From assembly GCA_946803715.1 (NCBI GenBank), contig CAMPET010000278.1, positions 19,017 through 83,016 of the forward strand: 64,000 nucleotides of DNA. Reading direction: 5' to 3'. Positions 25,267-38,207 of the stretch are shown piece by piece. The translations under genes were made by a program, and so were the position numbers. Position 1 is the stretch's first letter. Each line of letters begins with the position of its first letter. The notes under the pieces are model-generated. The model was not told the DNA's origin. It did no database searches and saw nothing but the letters and a program-made list of their open reading frames with translations. This DNA is from Beroe ovata (Eukaryota > Ctenophora > Nuda > Beroida > Beroidae).

Positions 25267-27269
25267 ATGTTGATCAACAGCATTTTCTTTATCAACAATT
25301 CTGGGTGAGATGCCCGTACTTTTATCAGTGGCACAAGTATTTTTAGGAGTAAGCAATCCAGATTCCTTATCTGAGGTGAATATTATCAATATCCCATAAT
25401 TGCAGTGACATATTCCTGGAAAAGCATTGGAGAGCAGTAGTTAGTAGATCTGTATGTGACCACTTCTTTGAGGCTCAATCAAAAGCTAGTTCTCCTGAGG
25501 ATGTCCCTCCTATCATCACTGCCAACAAGAACTACTTAATTAGTATTTACAGGGAGAAAATATATCTTGTTGCTGTTGCACAAATGGAAGGTAGATTTTT
25601 AATTTGCATTGACAGTTATCAGCTTATGATATCTGTTCTTATATCCTTCAGTGTATCAGTAGTGAGTAAATCTAATTATAATTTCAGTTCAGCCATTATT
25701 CGTTGTGGAATTTATGCATCGTGTTATGGACACATTCACAGAATACTTTGATGACTGCACAGAAAGTGCCATCAAGGATAACATTATTGTGGTCTATCAG
25801 GTATGTAAACAGAAATGAGCCATGGTTCAATATACCATGTGATCTTTTAGGTGAGTGTTCTTTTTTGCTGCAGCTCCTAGAAGAAATGTTAGATAATGGA
25901 TTCCCACTTGCAACAGAGCTGAATATCCTAACAGAACTTATTAAACCTCCAACGATAATAAATAAAGCCGTTTCTATTGTCACAGGCAAAGAGGGGTAAG
26001 CTTCTCTCCTTCTATAGAGAAATTGAAGTTTTTAAGTCATTGATATGATAATCATCTGCTGTTATTCACACTTACAGCTCTTTGTTTTAGAGTCAGTTCT
26101 GTGCTGCCCGGCTCTCAGTTATCAAATGTTCCTTGGAGGAGACAAGGTGTGAAATATGCCAACAATGAAGCTTACTTTGACTGTGTGGAGGATGTTGATG
26201 CAATTATTGATGCACATGGATCTGTTGTTTCTGCTGAAATACATGGAAATGTAAGTTGTGAGTAATAGATATGCCTCGAGGCCCTCTTCAGTATAAGATT
26301 GAAATGAAGTAAAAAGATAAATCTGACTCAATTTTAATTCAGCACTTCACGGTTCCTACCCTTATCTCAGATAAACTGTAATGTACATCTCTCTGGCATG
26401 CCTGATCTGAACATGTCCTTTGTTAACCCACGGATCCTAGATGATGTCTCATTCCATCCTTGTGTGAGGTTAAAACGCTGGGAAAATGAAAAGATACTTT
26501 CATTTATACCTCCTGATGGCTGCTTTGTACTCATGAGCTATCACATCAATGCCCAGAAGTAAGTATGATCATCATGATTCACCCAAAAATTATGAGAAAT
26601 TGGATTATCCATCTCATTGGATTATCCATCTCATTGGATTATCAATTTCATCTTTTCAGTCAGGTGGCGATACCAGTTTATGTTAGAGCTATGATAAATT
26701 TCAAAGATGGTCATGGAAAGATCGATATCACTGTTGGACCCAAACAGACTCTTGGAAAGACTGTATGTTTTATTTATATGACAGACATCGACGCCTTCTA
26801 ACGTGTCATCTATTCCAGTTATTCATCTAATTCATGGTATAACCTAGGTTGACAACGTTGTTGTAACTGTTCCAATGCCGAAAGATGTTACTGGCTGTTC
26901 CATGACAACATCAGTTGGTAGCTACACATTTGATCCCGTTTCCAAGCAACTCAAGTGGGATATTGGGAAAATACAACCTCTCAAAGTACCAACCATGAGA
27001 GGCGGTGTGAGTTATTAAAGAAGTTAATCCTTGGGTGCCATCAGATGTGATAGTAAACTAATGCCTTCACTTTATCCCGTCAGTGTACCCTGGCAATTGG
27101 ATCAGAGTGTAAAGTAGCTCACCCAACGATTCATGTGGAGTTTAAGATAATGCAGTTAGCTGTGAGTGGACTGAAGGTGAATCGTCTTGATATGTTCAAT
27201 GAGAACTACAAACCGTTTAAAGGAGTAAAGTACATTACGAAAGCTGGCAACTTCCAAGTGAGAACGTAA
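25267..27269 (+). CDS. AP3M1: AP-3 complex mu subunit
   Basis: Nine exons, 25267-25304, 25406-25590, 25688-25800, 25874-25995, 26091-26250, 26371-26558, 26660-26762, 26848-27006 and 27084-27269, join in phase to 417 residues; human AP3M1 has 418. The protein is the medium chain of the AP-3 adaptor, which sorts cargo from endosomes to lysosomes and related organelles and binds YxxPhi signals through its C-terminal domain. The longin-like N-terminus (FFINNSGDIFLEKHW), the linker start (LLEEMLDNGFPLATE), PWRRQGVKYANNEAYFD, LDDVSFHPCVRLKRWE, and the closing SGLKVNRLDM...KPFKGVKYITKAG all match the family in order. There is no sign of decay. Animals may have AP3M1 and AP3M2; the symbol denotes the family. 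Confidence 0.96.
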
Positions 27270-27781
27270 CAGGAGGCATTGGTTTATATGAAAGTTCGAC
27301 ACTTAAATGTGAACATTCAATAGCTAAGATGGCCCGAATGTTTGATATTGGCTATGATGAAATGACAAATATTCAATGAAATGGGAAGTGGAATCTCCAA
27401 TTTCATCTTATCGATAAGATAGGTGCTGCTTCAATAATATGACTGCGGATAAATTGATGTATTGATAGTGATTGAAATCCAATTTGTGTATCAAGATATT
27501 TCGTGACAATGTATTGTGTGTAATTTCATTGAAACTTCCCGCTGGACTGGATTTTTTAGCACGGCAGTTTCATTGATCTCCTCACTCTCAAGTGCTCATA
27601 AATCCATCTTTTTCCCATGATCCTGTTAGAGGGGTGAGGGGTGGGCCCGATAGGTAAGTGTGAACCACGAGTTGTGGTAAATTCTGACAATTGCACACCC
27701 TCCCCCTCTAGCAATCATGATGACTCCCATGTAGTTATAGTTGGTGTAGTTGCCTCTTACACACCACAATCACACGATGGA
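27270..27781. other. AP3M 3' flank and PAN2 5' UTR
   Basis: A spliced PAN2 5' UTR is plausible here: a GTAAGT donor follows GATAG at about 27655 and a pyrimidine-rich CTCTAG acceptor lies near 27711. In-frame coding could extend upstream of the chosen PAN2 ATG towards 27711. No other gene was seen. Confidence 0.4.
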
Positions 27782-30700
27782 ATGACCGAGAGATTATTCG
27801 GGTTCACGCGGAGTGAACTTGTCGAACATACAGGATGGTTAACCGATGTTGTCTTTGACAATCAGCAGGTAATGGGATCAATCAGTTACTGAGGGGTAAC
27901 TCATGAGATGAGTTATGGAATATGGAACTCGAACCTTTGGTTAATTGAGGCCCTGAATTGTTATCCAATCAGAAATCGCCGTCTCCCTCAGATTCTCCCT
28001 CTCCCAGATTCCCCTCACTCCCCCTCTCCCCCAGGAGTTGATATGGGCCGCAGGACAGAAGGGTTACGTGACCAGTTACTACTCCTGTGGGGTCCAGCTG
28101 TACACCAAGTTCCAAGCCAATGACGAAGTTGTTCAGCTCCTCCCAGTAGAGGCTGGTATTCTCAGCCTGTCATCCAACCGACTCAACTTACACACACGAC
28201 AGGTATTTTCTCAAAATCATATTCAGCAGAATCTCAAGTCTAAGGTTAACGTTTTTGATGAAAGAAATCAGCTGTTCTTGTATTCCAGTTATCCATTATT
28301 CCAGGGGTTATCTCAGCACTCGTTCACTTCTCCCAACATGACCCAGATGTGTTGCATGTGTGACGATCCCAACTCAGGTTACTATGGAGATTACAGCTTA
28401 TCCTGACTTGCTTTGTTTGTTGATGCGAAGAATTCTTGTGTCCTAGTGGTAGATTATTTCCAAATCTTAGTTAAAACTCTAATCTCAAACTCAGGAAGTG
28501 TGCTGTTGGGCGGACACACGAAAACAGTTACAAAGTACGATTTGGGTAAGCAGATGGTTGTCAATGAGATAACACTGGGAGACGCTGGGTGTGTGATTCT
28601 GAAGGAAACGAGCACCCTCGCTTGCATGGGTAAGATGGATTGGAATCAAGTGAGCACTTATAAACGTTTTTGTTTGATCAGCGTTATACCTAATTATTTT
28701 TCAACTTAACCTATTCATTCAAACCCTGACCTTGCCGTCTTGCATAGGTTGTCCCGATGGTGATATAGTGCTGTTCGACAAAAACACAAACAAGAAAGCT
28801 ACAACCATCCCAGCCCACTCTGGAACTATATCGGACTTCGATATCTGCGAGAATCTTCTGGTTAGTCAATCTCATTTCATAAAGTAGAATTCAAACTTTT
28901 GAATGATTTGCTCAGACTAGTTACGTACTGGTAACGCGTTAGTGTCTCCGAATAAGAAACCATAACGATTGTCGGCCAAAATCTTTCAAACGTCGAAATC
29001 CTTTCCCCTCCCTCGTCAGCAATAACAGATCCACGTGTATTTTTCCCGACACCACGTTACCATGACAACTCACGTAAACACGTGCAGGTCTCGTGCGGGT
29101 TCGCATCACGTGGTAACGAGATGTCCGTCAAGCGGTCGCTCCTCGTCTACGATCTCCGAATGATGCGGAGTCTAAATGCGGTACATTGCGCTATTGATCC
29201 TGTTCAGTTGAGGTTCATGCCCATGTACCATTCACAGGTAGGTTTTGATATATGAGTTAGGTCAGATGATTTCCAAGGAGTGAGGAGTATAATTCTCTCC
29301 GGAATATAATAGTATAATGATGAAATTCTTGCTCATTTTTGCTCTATTCTTGCCCTAAAATCGATGAAATCGATCATCCTGAAAAAATCATCCATCATTC
29401 CCCACTCCACAGGTTCTCATAGCCTCGCAGTCGGGTCAGTTTCAGCAGCTGGAAGTCACAGCGGCTTTGCCCCAGAACAAATACCTTTTCGAAGTGGATT
29501 TGGGTGGGAATTGTTGCAATGCTATCGATCTGTCGTCTACTTCCAAAGCTTTAGGTACAGTATGCCAAGACGTGGCTTATTAAGATGAATGGGTCAGATA
29601 AATTTAGGTAAAAATTAAAGCTCTCAGCATCTTAATTGGTGGTTGTCCAATCACACACACCTATCGGTTACCTCATATCCATAGCAATTGGAGACTCAGC
29701 TGGCATGTTACACTTGCTAGCTTCACAAGAAGGAACCGCATTCAACTCATTCTCTCAACCGACCTTCTTCCCAACCGAAAACATGCTCAACTTCCCCAAA
29801 GTCAATGTGAGTCGAGCAACCCACGTGGATGTTGCTATGGCTATATAGAGGTGTTGCTAGGGATATAAGAGGTTGATTTTTCTGTCATGTTCCGTTACAG
29901 GAACTAACTTTCCCAGATTGATGATTACAACTTCTGTCTGTCTAAAGTCCCGATGCCCCACACAACAGAGAGATTGCTGAGTGACTGGCCCGCTGAGTTC
30001 AACAGGCCGGGGGACCGACGACCAAAACCAATCGACCCTGAACTAATCAGAAACATGAAAGTGGTAATTTTCGTGGAGTAATTTGTTATGGTGGAGTTGA
30101 GTTATGGTGGAGTTGAGTTATGACCGCGAACCGACATAAGCCTATTCGTAGAGTTTTTACCGATCATATTGAGTCACAGCGACACATAAGTCGATCAATA
30201 CCCACGTCAATTCCCAATAGGACTTCACTAACAGATCGTATAGTCAACAATGAGTATTTGATTACCAGGTAAAGTATGTTGGGGGATACTCGCCCAACCC
30301 CAACAACATGTACAAGAACACCATCCCGTACGAGTTGAACCTTCTCCAAAGAACGGAGGAGGTGAAGAAGAGGATTGATTTGGTGGCGAAAGTACCTCGG
30401 GTAAGTGATGTTGTACCCTGTGTGCACTGTACAGTAGGTGGTGCACAGTGATGCAGTACCCTGTGTGCACTGTACAGTAGGTGGTGTACAGTGATGCAGT
30501 ACCCCTGTGTGCACTTTACAGTGTGCAGTAGGTGGTTCACACTCAACACAGTGATCAGTATACACTATCAGTGACTATAGTGTGACTATAGTGTGCACTT
30601 TTGTTTGCACTTTAGTGTGCAGTGTGTAACAGTGTGCGGTGTGTACTAGTTGTGCAGTGCACTCATCACTATCAGTTATCATGTCAGTGCGTCCAATGAA

Positions 30701-33700
30701 AGAGCAGTGACGCGCATCGTTCACAATGTTGCAGTGACTCAACATTCACTGTAATAGCATCGACTCTGTGTCCACTGCTCCATCCCAGGTCTATCAGCGG
30801 GTGGACATCGATCCCACCGCGTTAACCGACACTGAACTTCATAACTACAACAGAACAAAGTTCAGCGTGTTTTACAACACGAAGGGAAATCAATATTTCT
30901 GCACAATTTTGCAGGTATTAAGGGGTATTTTCTAAATTTGTCGAATGTCGTGTAGGATGTAAACGGAATTCTCAAATCTAGGTATAAAATCCCGGTATCA
31001 GTCTAGGCAGTTACATGGTTTACTTTCCAGATGCTGTATTACCTAGAGCCGATATCTCTGGCTTTGAAATCACACATTTGTCAAAACTCTGGGTGTTTGG
31101 CGTGTGAACTCGGCGTGCTATTCTACACTCTGGACGTGGCGGATGATAAGATAACCGATATTGATAACTTTATCAATGTAAGAGAGACTCCCTTTCATAT
31201 CCTACGATCCTCATAATTCAACGAAAACTCGCTACAAAGTTGCAGTTTATAATAGTTCTTAACTCCTTCTTTTTCCGCAGACATTTGATCAGTTAGCAGC
31301 AACGAAATACCAAGATTGGAATCTTTACGACAGACACATTGATCGGAAGGACCTGTTAACCTTGCCCCAGAACCTCATGACATTCTTACTGAGACACCTC
31401 CATGAGGAAATACTCAGACCTCCCCAACCTACCACTGCCATATATCTTACCTTTGGGAGCAAGGTAACACAGGCACAAGCGCGCACACATGCACAGAAAC
31501 ACACACACACACACATGCACACGCACAGAGACGCAGACACAGACACACACGCACTTAGACACAGATTCACAAAATGAGACACACACACAAACACACACAC
31601 ACACTGTAAACAGTGAGATAAGGTAGTGACACACACGTCACACACAGAATCGGACTACTTTATTTCACTCTTCACTTCGTCTCAGGTAGCTCACAGGACT
31701 ACTTGCGGGACTTGTCAGCAGAGTTGGTTTAACAAGCCCAGTATCAACCTATCCTGTACACTGGACTACCCCAGAGATGTAACCAAAATCAGCTTCGTTG
31801 ATGTGAGATCATATTCCTCATTGATACCAATCCTGAATTTGTAAAATTTGTAGGACATAATCGCACACACACACACACACANNNNNNNNNNNNNNNNNNN
31901 NNNNNNNNNNNNNNNNNNNNNNNNNNNNNNNNNNNNNNNNNNNNNNNNNNNNNNNNNNNNNNNNNNNNNNNNNNNNNNNNNNNNNNNNNNNNNNNNNNNN
32001 NNNNNNNNNNNNNNNNNNNNNNNNNNNNNNNNNNNNNNNNNNNNNNNNNNNNNNNNNNNNNNNNNNNNNNNNNNNNNNNNNNNNNNNNNNNNNNNNNNNN
32101 NNNNNNNNNNNNNNNNNNNNNNNNNNNNNNNNNNNNNNNNNNNNNNNNNNNNNNNNNNNNNNNNNNNNNNCACACACAAAATCATTCTTAGTTGTGTTAT
32201 GAGATGTAGTGTGATGCTAAGATAAATTGTTGTAATCGGATCCGTGGATCTGACACGAGTGTGTTTCAGTTATTGAAGCAGACTATGCAGAGTGAGAAAA
32301 ACGCGCGTCACATCGTGTGTAATAGGTGCAGAAACTACTCACCATTTACAGATAAAGCTATACTCGAGTCTCTACCGTACATCCTGCACATAAACTGCGG
32401 TAAGCGACGTCACAGCAACACTATAGCAACCTTATAGCAACCTCATCTCAACGCTCAGCATCCGCTTAGCAACATGACACATGTTGCAGGAATGTCGCCT
32501 GCTGACGTGGAATTCTGGCAACAACAGATCAAGATTCACAAAGAAGAGAATCACAAGGCATGCCCCCAGGGACTGGGGTGTAATAACGCAGAGTGTGAGC
32601 TCAGTCATGGCGCCGAGAATAGCAGTTGGCTTCCGTTAAACGTATGTGATTACCGTTCGTTCATCTTCTAACACTCAGAAATAGGCTACTATTAAAAATT
32701 CAAATTAAAGGTTTTTGAAGCAATGAAACAAGGATCAATTCAAGTCCCCTTCCAACAATAATAGTTCCACATTCATTGTTCATGATAATGTTCATTTCTC
32801 AGTTTCATATCCGAACTGGCACGGAGCAGGGCATGCTGCAGTTTACACGGGGCTTAGCACCTGACGACAAGGAGAGCTCCAATGTGGGTGTCTTCGAGTA
32901 CGAACTGTGCAGTGTGGTGGCACTCATAGATACTTCAAGTGAGTGTTGTCAGCATAAAGTGGTACAGTGAAGTGGTGTCAGGGTAAAGGGCCACTTTACC
33001 CTGACACCACTTTAAGGGTGATGTTAGAGTTAAGTAGAGCCAGGGGGAAGAAGTGTCAGCGAGAGTGGTGTCAGGGTAAAGTAGTGTCTGGGTGGACTGG
33101 TGTCAGGGTAAAGTGGTGTAACAGGGTAAAGTGGTGCAAGATTAAAGTGGTGTAACAGGGTGAAGTGGTGTAACAGTGAAGTGGTGTCAAGGGAACTGCG
33201 CTAAACACTTTGTGGTGTGTGTGAACCTGTGCTACCAATCTGCCCGACCTTGCAGCGTCCCAAGGACTGATGCTCCACTCACTGGTTGATCGAGGCTATC
33301 ATCAGCGCCAAGGAACTGACGACAAAGCCTGGTACCTGTTCAACGGCTGTTCGGCTACCAGCACTCACAATAAAGTAATCCTTCTTCGAATATTCTTCGA
33401 AATTTTCGTTGTCTGATCAGGAATCGAAGTCTCTTCCGTTCAAAAGTTCCAATTTGCATTTGTTCAAAATTTGTAGTTTTATTTTGAGACAAACCTCCCT
33501 GACAGGAAGCCACGAGCTTCGGTCAACCGTGGAAGACACCATGCGTGATTGTGTACAAACAAGTGAAGCTGCCCAAGGAACTGTTCAACCACACGACACC
33601 CAACATTCACGAGCTTTTTACCCCCTTCACCGTGATTCCGGTACTTGCACAATAAACTACAAATGGAGAACAATTAAATCGTCCATCCTACTATCCTAAA

Positions 33701-34660
33701 GTATAGAAAACCTATCATTCAACCACATAGTTGAATATCGCACAGTTGAATATCGCACCAAGATATCGCATATTTCCGCTACTTCAACTTTGTTTCATCG
33801 CAACCGTAGATCACGCCAGCCCAATTCAATATCCCGAACAGGGACTGAACCTGATCCCACTGGCGCCGAGCGAGAACCTATCAAAGGGGGAGTTAGTGGG
33901 TATCGGGGTGTCCATGGAGCCGCATCCTAACTGTCTACTCCGGGTTGTGCTGGTCAGGGGGCAGGGGGATCAAGAGGGAATCCCCTTCAGTCACGATTTC
34001 TGTCCAACCAACTACCCCATGGTGAGTGTCATGAGGGGATAATTGTCACCTCAGTAGAGAGAGAGAGGGAGTGTGTGAAGGTAATTTACGATAAAAATAG
34101 GTGCTGGAAGTCTTAATGATCAGTTTAATTTTGGGTCCATCCCCCTATTCGTAGTTGATTAATTTTCGTCACTTTTTCGTCAGGAGGGCCACCAAAACGT
34201 GAAGATCCTCTACTTCAAGATCAAGTGCCTGGTGGACCGGGGACTGATCCTCGTGGGTCACAGCATTACCAAACAGTTGCGATACCTTAACATCCACATT
34301 CCTGCTCAGCAATACATCGACACCGCCGATCTGTACCGATCTCAGAACTCAGGTAGGAGAAGTTATTAATGAAAAGTGAAAAAACGAGGCATCATACTTA
34401 CCTTCGTGTTTTCAACCCCTTCAAACAAGCTGTTTGTATCGGGGTTCGCCGTTTCTAAACTCCGATTTTTCATACCATTCCCTATAACAGGATCCATACC
34501 GCCCCTACAATTCCTCTGTCCCTCTATACTGAACATGGAGAACATCCCTGGAGCGCACAATGACGCTGTCTTCTCCCTCCAACTATACGAGAAATTCTTG
34601 GAGCTGAAACGAGCCGGACAGTTTGAGAAAACTCTGAAAGCGATCCACGCAGATCAGTAG
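27782..34660 (+). CDS. PAN2: PAN2, scaffold/nuclease subunit of the PAN2-PAN3 deadenylase, with degenerate exonuclease site
   Basis: Twenty-two exons: 27782-27868, 28035-28202, 28305-28377, 28495-28629, 28748-28860, 29088-29237, 29413-29554, 29685-29806, 29917-30063, 30269-30400, 30789-30914, 31031-31177, 31281-31463, 31686-31802, 32270-32399, 32490-32641, 32803-32938, 33256-33374, 33506-33640, 33842-34021, 34184-34352 and 34491-34660. All join in phase to about 1010 residues; human PAN2 has about 1200. The WD40 domain ([31 protein letters not shown]) comes first, then the linker ([14 protein letters not shown]), then the inactive ubiquitin-hydrolase-like domain ([20 protein letters not shown]), then the RNase-D-like exonuclease domain. 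In the last, motif I DxE is replaced by G860-V-S862, the motif II Asp by Gln929, and only the motif III Asp (979) remains. The surroundings ([32 protein letters not shown]) stay family-like. The start ATG is uncertain. Confidence 0.92.
30405..30533 (+). repeat. 43 bp minisatellite in a PAN2 intron
   Basis: Units starting GTGATG at 30405, 30448 and 30491 contain GTACCCTGTGTGCACTGTAC and AGTAGGTGGT. The third is partly degenerate, and further GTGTGCAGT-rich sequence follows to about 30700. The intron 30401-30788 is otherwise featureless. Confidence 0.8.
31882..32170. other. Assembly gap inside a (CA)n microsatellite
   Basis: A run of 289 N is bounded on both sides by CACACA, inside the PAN2 intron 31803-32269. 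Its true length is unknown. The exons on either side join in phase. Confidence 0.97.
32950..33190 (+). repeat. AGTGGTGTCAGGGTAA minisatellite in a PAN2 intron
   Basis: Diverged copies of (A)AGTGGTGT(AA)CAGGGT with a period of roughly 16-17 bp fill most of the intron between the exons at 32803-32938 and 33256-33374. One inverted copy near 32992-33014 could form a hairpin. Confidence 0.75.
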
Positions 34661-35670: not shown

Positions 35671-38207
35671 ATGTCCATGAAATATGTGTGTCTGGCTGTC
35701 CTTGTACTACAGGTAATTGAGTAGATAGATTCAGACGACAGTTTTTGAGGATTATAATAAGAGGTAATCGCGGGGAAAGATTCAGACGACAGTTTATAAG
35801 GGTCGATGTCTTACTTGTTATGTAATCGTGTGGAAGGGAGTGAAGTGAAAAGAATGATACTGTCATAGGAAAATCCAACTTCTCTTACAGACGGTAACAA
35901 ACGTGATGCTGGTACGAAGAGCACGACATCTCTCCTGCTCGGTTCCTATCGTGGTGTTGTGTCAAGAGATTGTCAAACTGGTGTCATGCTGCGCAGTGGT
36001 AGTTAGTAGGTGAGAAAATAATATGGTGTCAATTATACTGTGTGTCGTCGCGATTATGATGGTGTTGGAGGGGGGGGGTTAAGGCAGTAAACCTAGGCAT
36101 GTAAAGAAGAAATAAAAATTTTGCGATAAATAAAGATCAAAACTGTTTTGCCTTCTCCATAGCGATAGTTGGTGTCATGGTCATATCTCTTTTCAACTTC
36201 TAGTTGTGGGCCAAAGAAAGCAGTGAGTGATATCAACCGATTCGTTATCAAGGACTGGTTAACCACGGTTAAAGTTGGTGTCCCTGCCTTCCTCTACATT
36301 ATCCAGAACCAGCTTCTCTTCCTAGCGCTAGCTCACCTTGACACAGCAACGTATCAGGTAGGTAGAACTACTCGTCACGTGACTTCTATAACCTAACACC
36401 TGAGAAGAAGATTGAATTTTCCCCAATTTCCCGATGAGCAAGCTCAAAAATTTTCTCGGAGTTGAATTCTGCGTCAAAAATAGGTCAGGAACACTTATTC
36501 CTAGTATACCCACTGCCAAATAGTTTTCGACTGCTTTTTGGTATCGGTGCGTCTCATTGATTTTCGCGTTTTTGTTGTGTTTGTTTCCCACAGGTTTGAA
36601 ATTGTCATTTGGGCGTGGTTTCACGGCAAGTATGAACTTCAAATGATCGCAAAGAGGAATGATACTTGTAGTGTGATAGTAGAAAAGATGAATTGACCAA
36701 AAATTTTTGTTGTTAGTGACAGAAAAGTATCCATTGGAAACCCTCAAAATTGACATATAAAAGTGTGGAGTCATTCAGTTCACTTTTACCGATACTTAGA
36801 TCAGGAGTTCGAAGAAAAAATTTTGTCCCATCTTTATGTAAATACTACGCATTCCCATGTATTTTTGGACGCTGAATCGATTCCCAGTCGAATTTTTGGC
36901 CTATCTCGCTTCCCCGAGGAGCTGTTCGTCAGGTGACTCCTTACCTAACATCTGAGAAGAAATTCGAATTTTCCTCGATTTCCAGATGAGCTAGCTCAAA
37001 AATTCCCCCGCAATTTACTCAAGTAAACTGATCACGATATTTCAGATAACATATCAGTTAAAGATCCTGACTACAGCGATCTTCTCCATAGTGCTTCTGA
37101 GGAAGAAAATCAGTGTAGAGCAGTGGTTGTCACTTGTTCTTCTAACTGTCGGGGTCATCCTAGTACAGGTAGAAACATCTTCGCATTAAGTAAAGGAGAA
37201 GAAGTAGCCATGGAGGAAGACAATCGAGATTGTCTTGTATTGGCGCTCGAAATCAGGTCTCATTCCTTCCATTCCACCTAGCACTCACACCCCTCACATA
37301 TTATTCTCAGTGGCGTGCCAGCGATAGCGCCGCCTCCTCTATCGACTCGTCATCGCCGCTAGTCGGCGTGATGGCAATCCTCATGGCGTGCTTGACATCT
37401 GGCTTTGCTGGCGTGTTTTTCGAGATGATGTTGAAACGAGGGGGTGAAACCACTGTCTGGATAAGGAACATACAACTGGGTAAGAAGTGTAGCTTTGGTA
37501 AACAATTTCGTCATTCAAAAGGCAGATTTCCTTTTCATGGTCAAGAATCGCGAATTAAGGTTTACGAAACCCAAACATTGACAAACATTTTCACCTGTCT
37601 CACAGCGTTGTGTAGTTGTTTAGTTGGGCTTGGTAACGTGTTGTTGACGGAAACTGATCATATGTCACAGAACGGAGTATTCCACGACTTTCAACCGGTT
37701 GTCTTAGCAGTGATCTTCTCACAGGTCATTGCTAATACTTGAGCTCACTTCTTATAGTAAAAACGTTATACGATCATAGCTTGAGCCAAAAACAGGGAAT
37801 TCCTGACAACATCTTCTCCACATGACAATCTCACACGTATAGGCATACGGTGGAATACTGATTGGACTTGTGGTAAAGTATGCAGATAACATACTGAAAG
37901 TGTTTGCAACTAGTGTATCTATCATCATCTCTTCTCTTATTGCTATCTTCTACTTCAACGACCTTCACTTCACACTGTAAGTATTATTACGAATTCAAGG
38001 CCGTCGTTCTCTACAACACTTACAGTTGAATGTGGTTAAACTATACTTTTATTCGTTCAAACTCATGCAAAGAATTTCATCAAAAACTTGACGGTAACAT
38101 GAGTTTTGTTCTCTATCAGGACATTTGGTAGCGGATTGGCGCTAGTGGTTACAGCTACAGCTGTTTATTCCCTCTTCCCATACAGGGAGAAAGCTAAAAC
38201 GCAATAG
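35671..38207 (+). CDS. SLC35A-family nucleotide-sugar transporter (UDP-galactose / UDP-GlcNAc type)
   Basis: Eight exons, 35671-35712, 35891-36009, 36204-36357, 37046-37168, 37311-37479, 37606-37724, 37843-37976 and 38120-38207, join in phase to 315 residues with about ten hydrophobic segments. The family exchanges a nucleotide sugar for the nucleoside monophosphate across the Golgi membrane. Recognisable stretches are [11 protein letters not shown] at the N-terminus, [29 protein letters not shown] in the middle, [13 protein letters not shown], and the diagnostic [15 protein letters not shown] near the end; all match SLC35A1/A2/A3. Which substrate it uses cannot be read from the sequence. The second exon ([13 protein letters not shown]) is less conserved. 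Its 0.7 kb third intron is filled by a copy of the 545 bp repeat. Confidence 0.92.
36372..37013 (+). repeat. Diverged copy of the 545 bp repeat in an SLC35A intron
   Basis: It contains GTCACGTGACTTCTATAACC at the left, CCCACAGGTTTGAAATTGTC in the middle and GGACGCTGAATCGATTCCC at the right, the same order as the tandem array at 15.2-17.5 kb. The two GTCA(C/G)GTGAC motifs are about 553 bp apart, so slightly more than one unit is present. Confidence 0.8.

Follow-up and report, generated by a model that had tools for sequence, protein, structure and literature searches.

A 64,000-nucleotide stretch of the genome of the ctenophore Beroe ovata (contig CAMPET010000278.1, positions 19,017 to 83,016 of the forward strand; 'the window') carries a gene for PAN2, the partner of PAN3, which in other organisms takes part in shortening mRNA poly(A) tails. 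Its product is full length, but the C-terminal DEDDh exonuclease domain has none of the acidic residues of motifs I and II. The closest relatives carry the same or most of the same lesions. As far as can be read from sequence, a putative pseudo-nuclease PAN2 is shared by at least two ctenophores. The loss is confirmed, and the case for it is stronger than in the first-pass annotation of the window, which had reported a lost deadenylase site from this gene alone.

Exonuclease domain of PAN2 in Beroe and its relatives

The gene and the features of its exonuclease domain are as follows.

27741..34660, + strand: PAN2 gene, 22 exons, hand-made model with GT-AG introns, coding for 1009 residues in one open frame
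33842..34660, + strand: exonuclease domain of DEDDh type, degenerate, encoded by the final three exons and aligned with intact PAN2
33905..33913, + strand: motif I position, G-V-S where intact PAN2 has D-A-E
34274..34276, + strand: motif II position, Gln for Asp (yeast D1020)
34556..34564, + strand: motif III H-N-D, Asp (34562-34564) in place, His shifted by three residues

Motif I is read directly from exon 33842-34021 and motif II directly from exon 34184-34352, and both are as the first-pass annotation had them; residue numbers run one lower here (G859, S861, Q928, D978), the start Met being provisional, and the codon positions agree. The Asp of motif III is indeed kept, to which we add that its loop is three residues short, with the His 2 residues ahead of the Asp (normally 5). 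Two conserved loops are deleted: the one ahead of motif II, of about 20 residues, was described before, and a second, of about 19 residues, follows motif I. With the former goes the counterpart of yeast Y975, a Tyr stacked against the final adenine. In yeast numbering, obtained by counting along the solved yeast Pan2 chain, the residues lost in the window protein and in that of Mnemiopsis are D910, E912, F913, Y975 and D1020. The frame is open throughout and the other domains are kept.

With a threshold as loose as E 10, Pfam still finds no RNase_T (PF00929) match in the window PAN2; the sole exonuclease trace is DEDDh_C (E 0.1, 13.2 bits against a cut-off of 27, residues 915-985). All four marks of an active DEDDh deadenylase (motif I D-x-E, the motif II Asp, motif III H-x4-D and an RNase_T match) are therefore missing. 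Compared with the PAN2 of known PAN2-PAN3 complexes (human 9qtu, yeast 6r9j/6r5k, Neurospora 4czw), the order of WD40, linker, UCH-like domain and exonuclease fold is the same, whereas the Asp and Glu of motif I and the Asp of motif II are replaced, the His is displaced, the loops are deleted and RNase_T is unmatched.

The counterparts of several lost residues have been studied in other PAN2 proteins. F913 and Y975 are RNA contacts (PMC7116106), E912A abolished activity and Chaetomium E899A is inactive (PMC4158885), and D1020A and human D1087A serve as catalytically inactive mutants (PMC6547884). Since single mutations of the motif I Glu or the motif II Asp inactivate, and the window protein has three changes together with deletions, activity should be lost; we strongly infer that this PAN2 is unable to trim poly(A). 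Laboratory Pan2 D1020A and E912A and human D1087A, used for RNA binding, are altered at the same residues (PMC6547884; PMC4158885), but the ctenophore change is natural, common to species and accompanied by loop deletions.

The closest protein is a hypothetical protein of Mnemiopsis leidyi (P0003, 1008 residues, 81% identity over 100%), followed by P0004 (1017 residues, 57% identity), which is encoded on a 3174-base contig; the remaining 65 of 67 protein matches have 23-39% identity to the window PAN2. Because a 1017-codon frame fits on a contig of that size, against 22 exons in the window, the P0004 contig is most simply a spliced transcript. P0003 has the same lesions, with G-L-S at motif I, Gln at motif II and H-N-D at motif III. 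P0004 shares most of them: its catalytic columns read G-V-E at motif I, Ser at motif II and Gln and Glu at motif III. RNase_T at E up to 0.1 is found in neither, and the coral control P0017 gives E 1.4e-19.

The larger of two alignments (A2) has 41 of the 67 matches, 26 truncated or near-duplicate ones having been removed by eye; the smaller (A1) has 12 rows. In A2 the residues D, E, D, H and D are kept in 38 of 39 non-ctenophore rows, and the 39th, the Nematostella isoform P0011, keeps the first three and ends before motif III. In a tree of the non-exonuclease part (25 PAN2 rows: 24 chosen proteins and the window), the window, Mnemiopsis and P0004 sequences group at 100% bootstrap; it is this tree alone that assigns P0004 to the ctenophores. 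PF00929 is missing from eight of the 67 matches, namely P0003, P0004 and six proteins of 613-919 residues, one of which (P0059) stops ahead of the exonuclease. Searches with the C-terminal pieces (5 proteins) and with P0004 (8 proteins, including P0003 and P0004) returned no further PAN2 resembling the ctenophore type; the other 5 and 6 proteins all have PF00929 and 29-38% identity.

The same lesions in Mnemiopsis, and most of them in P0004, mean that the loss is old and shared rather than an assembly error. On the three sequences, the best reading is that it arose on or near the ctenophore stem. We found no report of this PAN2 loss in searches of the open-access literature; 'pan2' occurs 0 times in PMC10284499, and passages of it and of PMC4793324 show no ctenophore PAN2.

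Gene model, partners and other deadenylases

The remaining features of the gene are these.

27741-27868, 28035-28202, 28305-28377, 28495-28629, 28748-28860, 29088-29237, 29413-29554, 29685-29806, + strand: PAN2 exons 1-8
29917-30060, 30269-30400, 30789-30914, 31031-31177, 31281-31463, 31686-31802, 32270-32399, 32490-32641, + strand: PAN2 exons 9-16
32803-32938, 33256-33374, 33506-33640, 33842-34021, 34184-34352, 34491-34660, + strand: PAN2 exons 17-22
27782, + strand: possible start ATG (5' end uncertain); stop TAG at 34658-34660
27741..29806, + strand: WD40 (PAN2_N) domain exons, PF20770 E 1.2e-45, residues 24-301
29685..30914, + strand: PAN3-interaction linker (PID) exons, residues ~311-440, LLSDWP motif kept (alignment A1)
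30789..33640, + strand: UCH-like (pseudo-ubiquitin-hydrolase) domain exons, PF13423 E 1.7e-48, residues 456-782
32561..32608, + strand: CCCH finger pattern C-x5-C-x4-C-x3-H in the UCH region, residues 681-696
31882..32170, no strand: assembly gap (N run) with (CA)n on either side, in a UCH-region intron and outside the exonuclease domain

PAN2_N scores 156.4 bits (cut-off 26.6) and UCH_1 166.3 bits (cut-off 22.2), and by sequence the best solved chain is human PAN2 (9qtu, E 5.8e-116). With its domains, a predicted exonuclease fold after the UCH domain, PAN2 as best sequence match and none better found in the genome, the gene is the PAN2 orthologue. Relative to P0003, no residues are lost at the N run (alignment A1). 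The intron at 32950-33190, between two UCH-region exons, consists mostly of imperfect AGTGGTGTCAGGGTAA-like repeat units, as judged by eye. Neighbouring PAN2 in the window are exons for an adaptor-complex medium (mu) subunit upstream (26848-27266, PF00928) and a nucleotide-sugar transporter exon downstream (36169-36393, PF04142).

The CCCH pattern is present in the window protein and in 31 of the 41 rows of A2, ctenophores included; it is missing from ten rows, those of two fish, one tunicate, Lottia (a limpet) and six distant sequences (P0064-P0069). Zinc-finger matches in P0003 and P0017 are below the Pfam cut-off. The pattern may mark an insert that binds RNA, present in animals and lost in chordates.

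PAN3 is present (L013). The genome has one Pan3_PK (PF18101) match, E 5.6e-48, in an uninterrupted open reading frame of 569 residues that matches human PAN3 of 9qtu with E 5.4e-103. Its N-terminus has a CCCH finger that at 19.5 bits falls just under the Pfam cut-off of 20.5, and the protein also has a PAM2-like stretch, A-P-P-F-I-P. The intronless frame, compared with the 22 exons of PAN2, could speculatively be a retrocopy that took the place of the original. On the PAN2 side, the PAN3-interaction linker motifs are kept (alignment A1); the role of this linker in Pan2 is described in PMC4158885.

Another member of the DEDD deadenylase family (L015), which from its PF04857 match and its sequence we take to be CNOT7/CAF1, has its motifs intact (DTEF, SPYDFGY, HQAGSD), unlike the window PAN2. 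L014, presumably a PARN/PNLDC1-type gene, keeps its nuclease motifs by eye, and CNOT1-type exons (PF04054) and two MLLE domains are also present. CNOT6 was not identified among 60 Exo_endo_phos matches in the genome. Of these PF03372 matches, 25 are in open reading frames of 800-1231 residues, probably non-LTR retrotransposons. Given PAN3, the CNOT7 motifs and the PARN-type, CNOT1-type and MLLE sequences, the complex appears to be kept and other candidate deadenylases are available.

Readings of a PAN2 without its active site

With the catalytic residues gone and the full-length protein kept, ctenophore PAN2 probably binds or organizes mRNA tails rather than trimming them. The reading that we favour, and regard as reasonably likely, is that a folded pseudo-nuclease PAN2 works with PAN3 as a scaffold on poly(A) and PABP while CCR4-NOT does the cutting. 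This was also proposed in the first-pass annotation; with the partners present and the PAN3 and CNOT7 motifs in place it is the best-supported of the options. On or near the ctenophore stem, PAN2 would have lost its two-metal DEDDh site along with the loops holding the 3' end of poly(A), and would have persisted under constraint as a folded pseudo-nuclease. Together with PAN3 it would stay on PABP-coated tails as a scaffold or as a sensor of tail occupancy or length, perhaps passing tails to CCR4-NOT, a cutter with CNOT7 motifs intact; the CCCH pattern of the UCH region may contribute an extra RNA contact. Pan3 binds RNA whereas isolated Pan2 does not (PMC4158885), and a dead Pan2-Pan3 mutant binds poly(A) ribonucleoproteins (PMC6547884), so a PAN2 without its site could remain with PAN3 on tails. 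Some cyclin mRNAs are reported to lose tail length in Mnemiopsis development (PMC10284499), and tail shortening therefore appears to occur there.

The dead exonuclease domain looks constrained: between the window and Mnemiopsis it has 84% identity, and the other parts of the protein have 76-89%, with the UCH domain the least conserved (76.3%). The UCH-exonuclease fold is still predicted in AlphaFold2 models of ctenophore relatives of the window PAN2.

Several points weigh against this reading. The models rest on alignments mostly of intact PAN2, the structure match covered more than the exonuclease domain alone, and constraint is read from protein identity only, without synonymous sites. For partition branch lengths the Bayesian information criterion favours the proportional model (78909 against 79060 for unlinked); the Akaike information criterion favours the unlinked one (78591 against 78665). 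Without the RNA-holding loops, tail binding would fall to PAN3, PABP or the CCCH finger. P0004 retains the motif I Glu that matches yeast E912, and S. cerevisiae Caf1/Pop2, with a non-canonical metal site, keeps some RNase activity (PMC3870282).

A dead PAN2 could instead be kept for a role unrelated to poly(A), its UCH and WD40 domains acting in ubiquitin or protein interactions and its exonuclease fold packing on the UCH domain. Both domains are retained, PMC7116106 describes UCH-Exo as a single rigid and contiguous unit, and deubiquitinase activity is reported for human USP52/PAN2 (PMC5876348). This last report qualifies the first-pass annotation, which, in agreement with the structural view, calls the UCH domain catalytically dead. 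We nevertheless think such a role unlikely: PAN3 and the PAN3-binding linker are retained, which points to the continued importance of the PAN2-PAN3 assembly, and UCH is the least conserved domain between the window protein and that of Mnemiopsis.

It is more improbable still that PAN2 keeps some nuclease activity, weak or changed in nature, by using other ligands. Pop2 offers a precedent, since this deadenylase subunit, too, stays in its complex with a non-canonical metal site (PMC3870282), and the motif III Asp is kept in the window and Mnemiopsis proteins, as is the motif I Glu in P0004. Purified Pop2 is reported to keep broad ribonuclease activity, whereas in the PAN2 of the window and of Mnemiopsis three acids of the metal site (both of motif I and the motif II Asp) are gone, as are the substrate loops with the contacts F913 and Y975, and the His is displaced. 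The motif II residue varies between Gln and Ser across lineages, as expected without selection.

That the window gene is an inactive paralogue of an active PAN2, an option raised in the first-pass annotation, is very unlikely. The assembly is in 534 contigs with gaps, and the single query, Nematostella P0011, itself ends shortly past motif II, but with it no other PAN2 locus was found in the 77.8 Mb. It gave six matches, five in the window gene (its exonuclease part matching only 34196-34345) and one on contig C35, and revealed no intact alternative exon that would restore the site. The C35 open reading frame was rejected as a second PAN2; it has a DCEM motif and an RNase_T match of E 1.7e-12. 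We take it to be a REXO-type exonuclease. The genome-wide RNase_T (PF00929) listing is incomplete, as this frame is not in it. Protein searches likewise gave one Mnemiopsis PAN2, the dead one.

An artefact of assembly, wrong exons or a missed exon is hardly credible, even with a hand-made model and an N run in one intron, as exons 33842-34021 and 34184-34352 have AG/GT borders, splice in phase and, like the rest of the model, are colinear with the separately derived Mnemiopsis protein and transcript-like P0004, which have the same shortened domain.

Possible microRNA link and meaning

Within the microRNA complex GW182/TNRC6 recruits PAN2-PAN3 (PMC3870282). Mnemiopsis is reported to lack Drosha, Pasha/DGCR8 and recognizable microRNAs (PMC3563456), and a table in PMC4793324 gives Drosha and Pasha/DGCR8 as not found in Mnemiopsis and Pleurobrachia. 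The GW182 profile PF16608 gave no match, but the controls gave none either, so this result carries no information on GW182. It is attractive to suppose that absence of the microRNA pathway removed one recruiter of PAN2-PAN3, and this may have been the cause of the loss. We are doubtful of, but note, a bolder version of the scaffold reading, in which a nuclease-free PAN2-PAN3 poly(A) ribonucleoprotein complex throughout the phylum counts or guards tails and gates CCR4-NOT, maybe tied to the absence of microRNAs.

Of the cytoplasmic deadenylases, two are regarded as conserved, and PAN2-PAN3 is one of them; what it does apart from cutting is difficult to tell from the cutting itself. If the complex is kept without its cutter, a selected non-nuclease role would be shown and the 'deadenylase' annotation in ctenophores would change; in ctenophores nature would then have separated the non-catalytic function of PAN2-PAN3 from the catalytic one.
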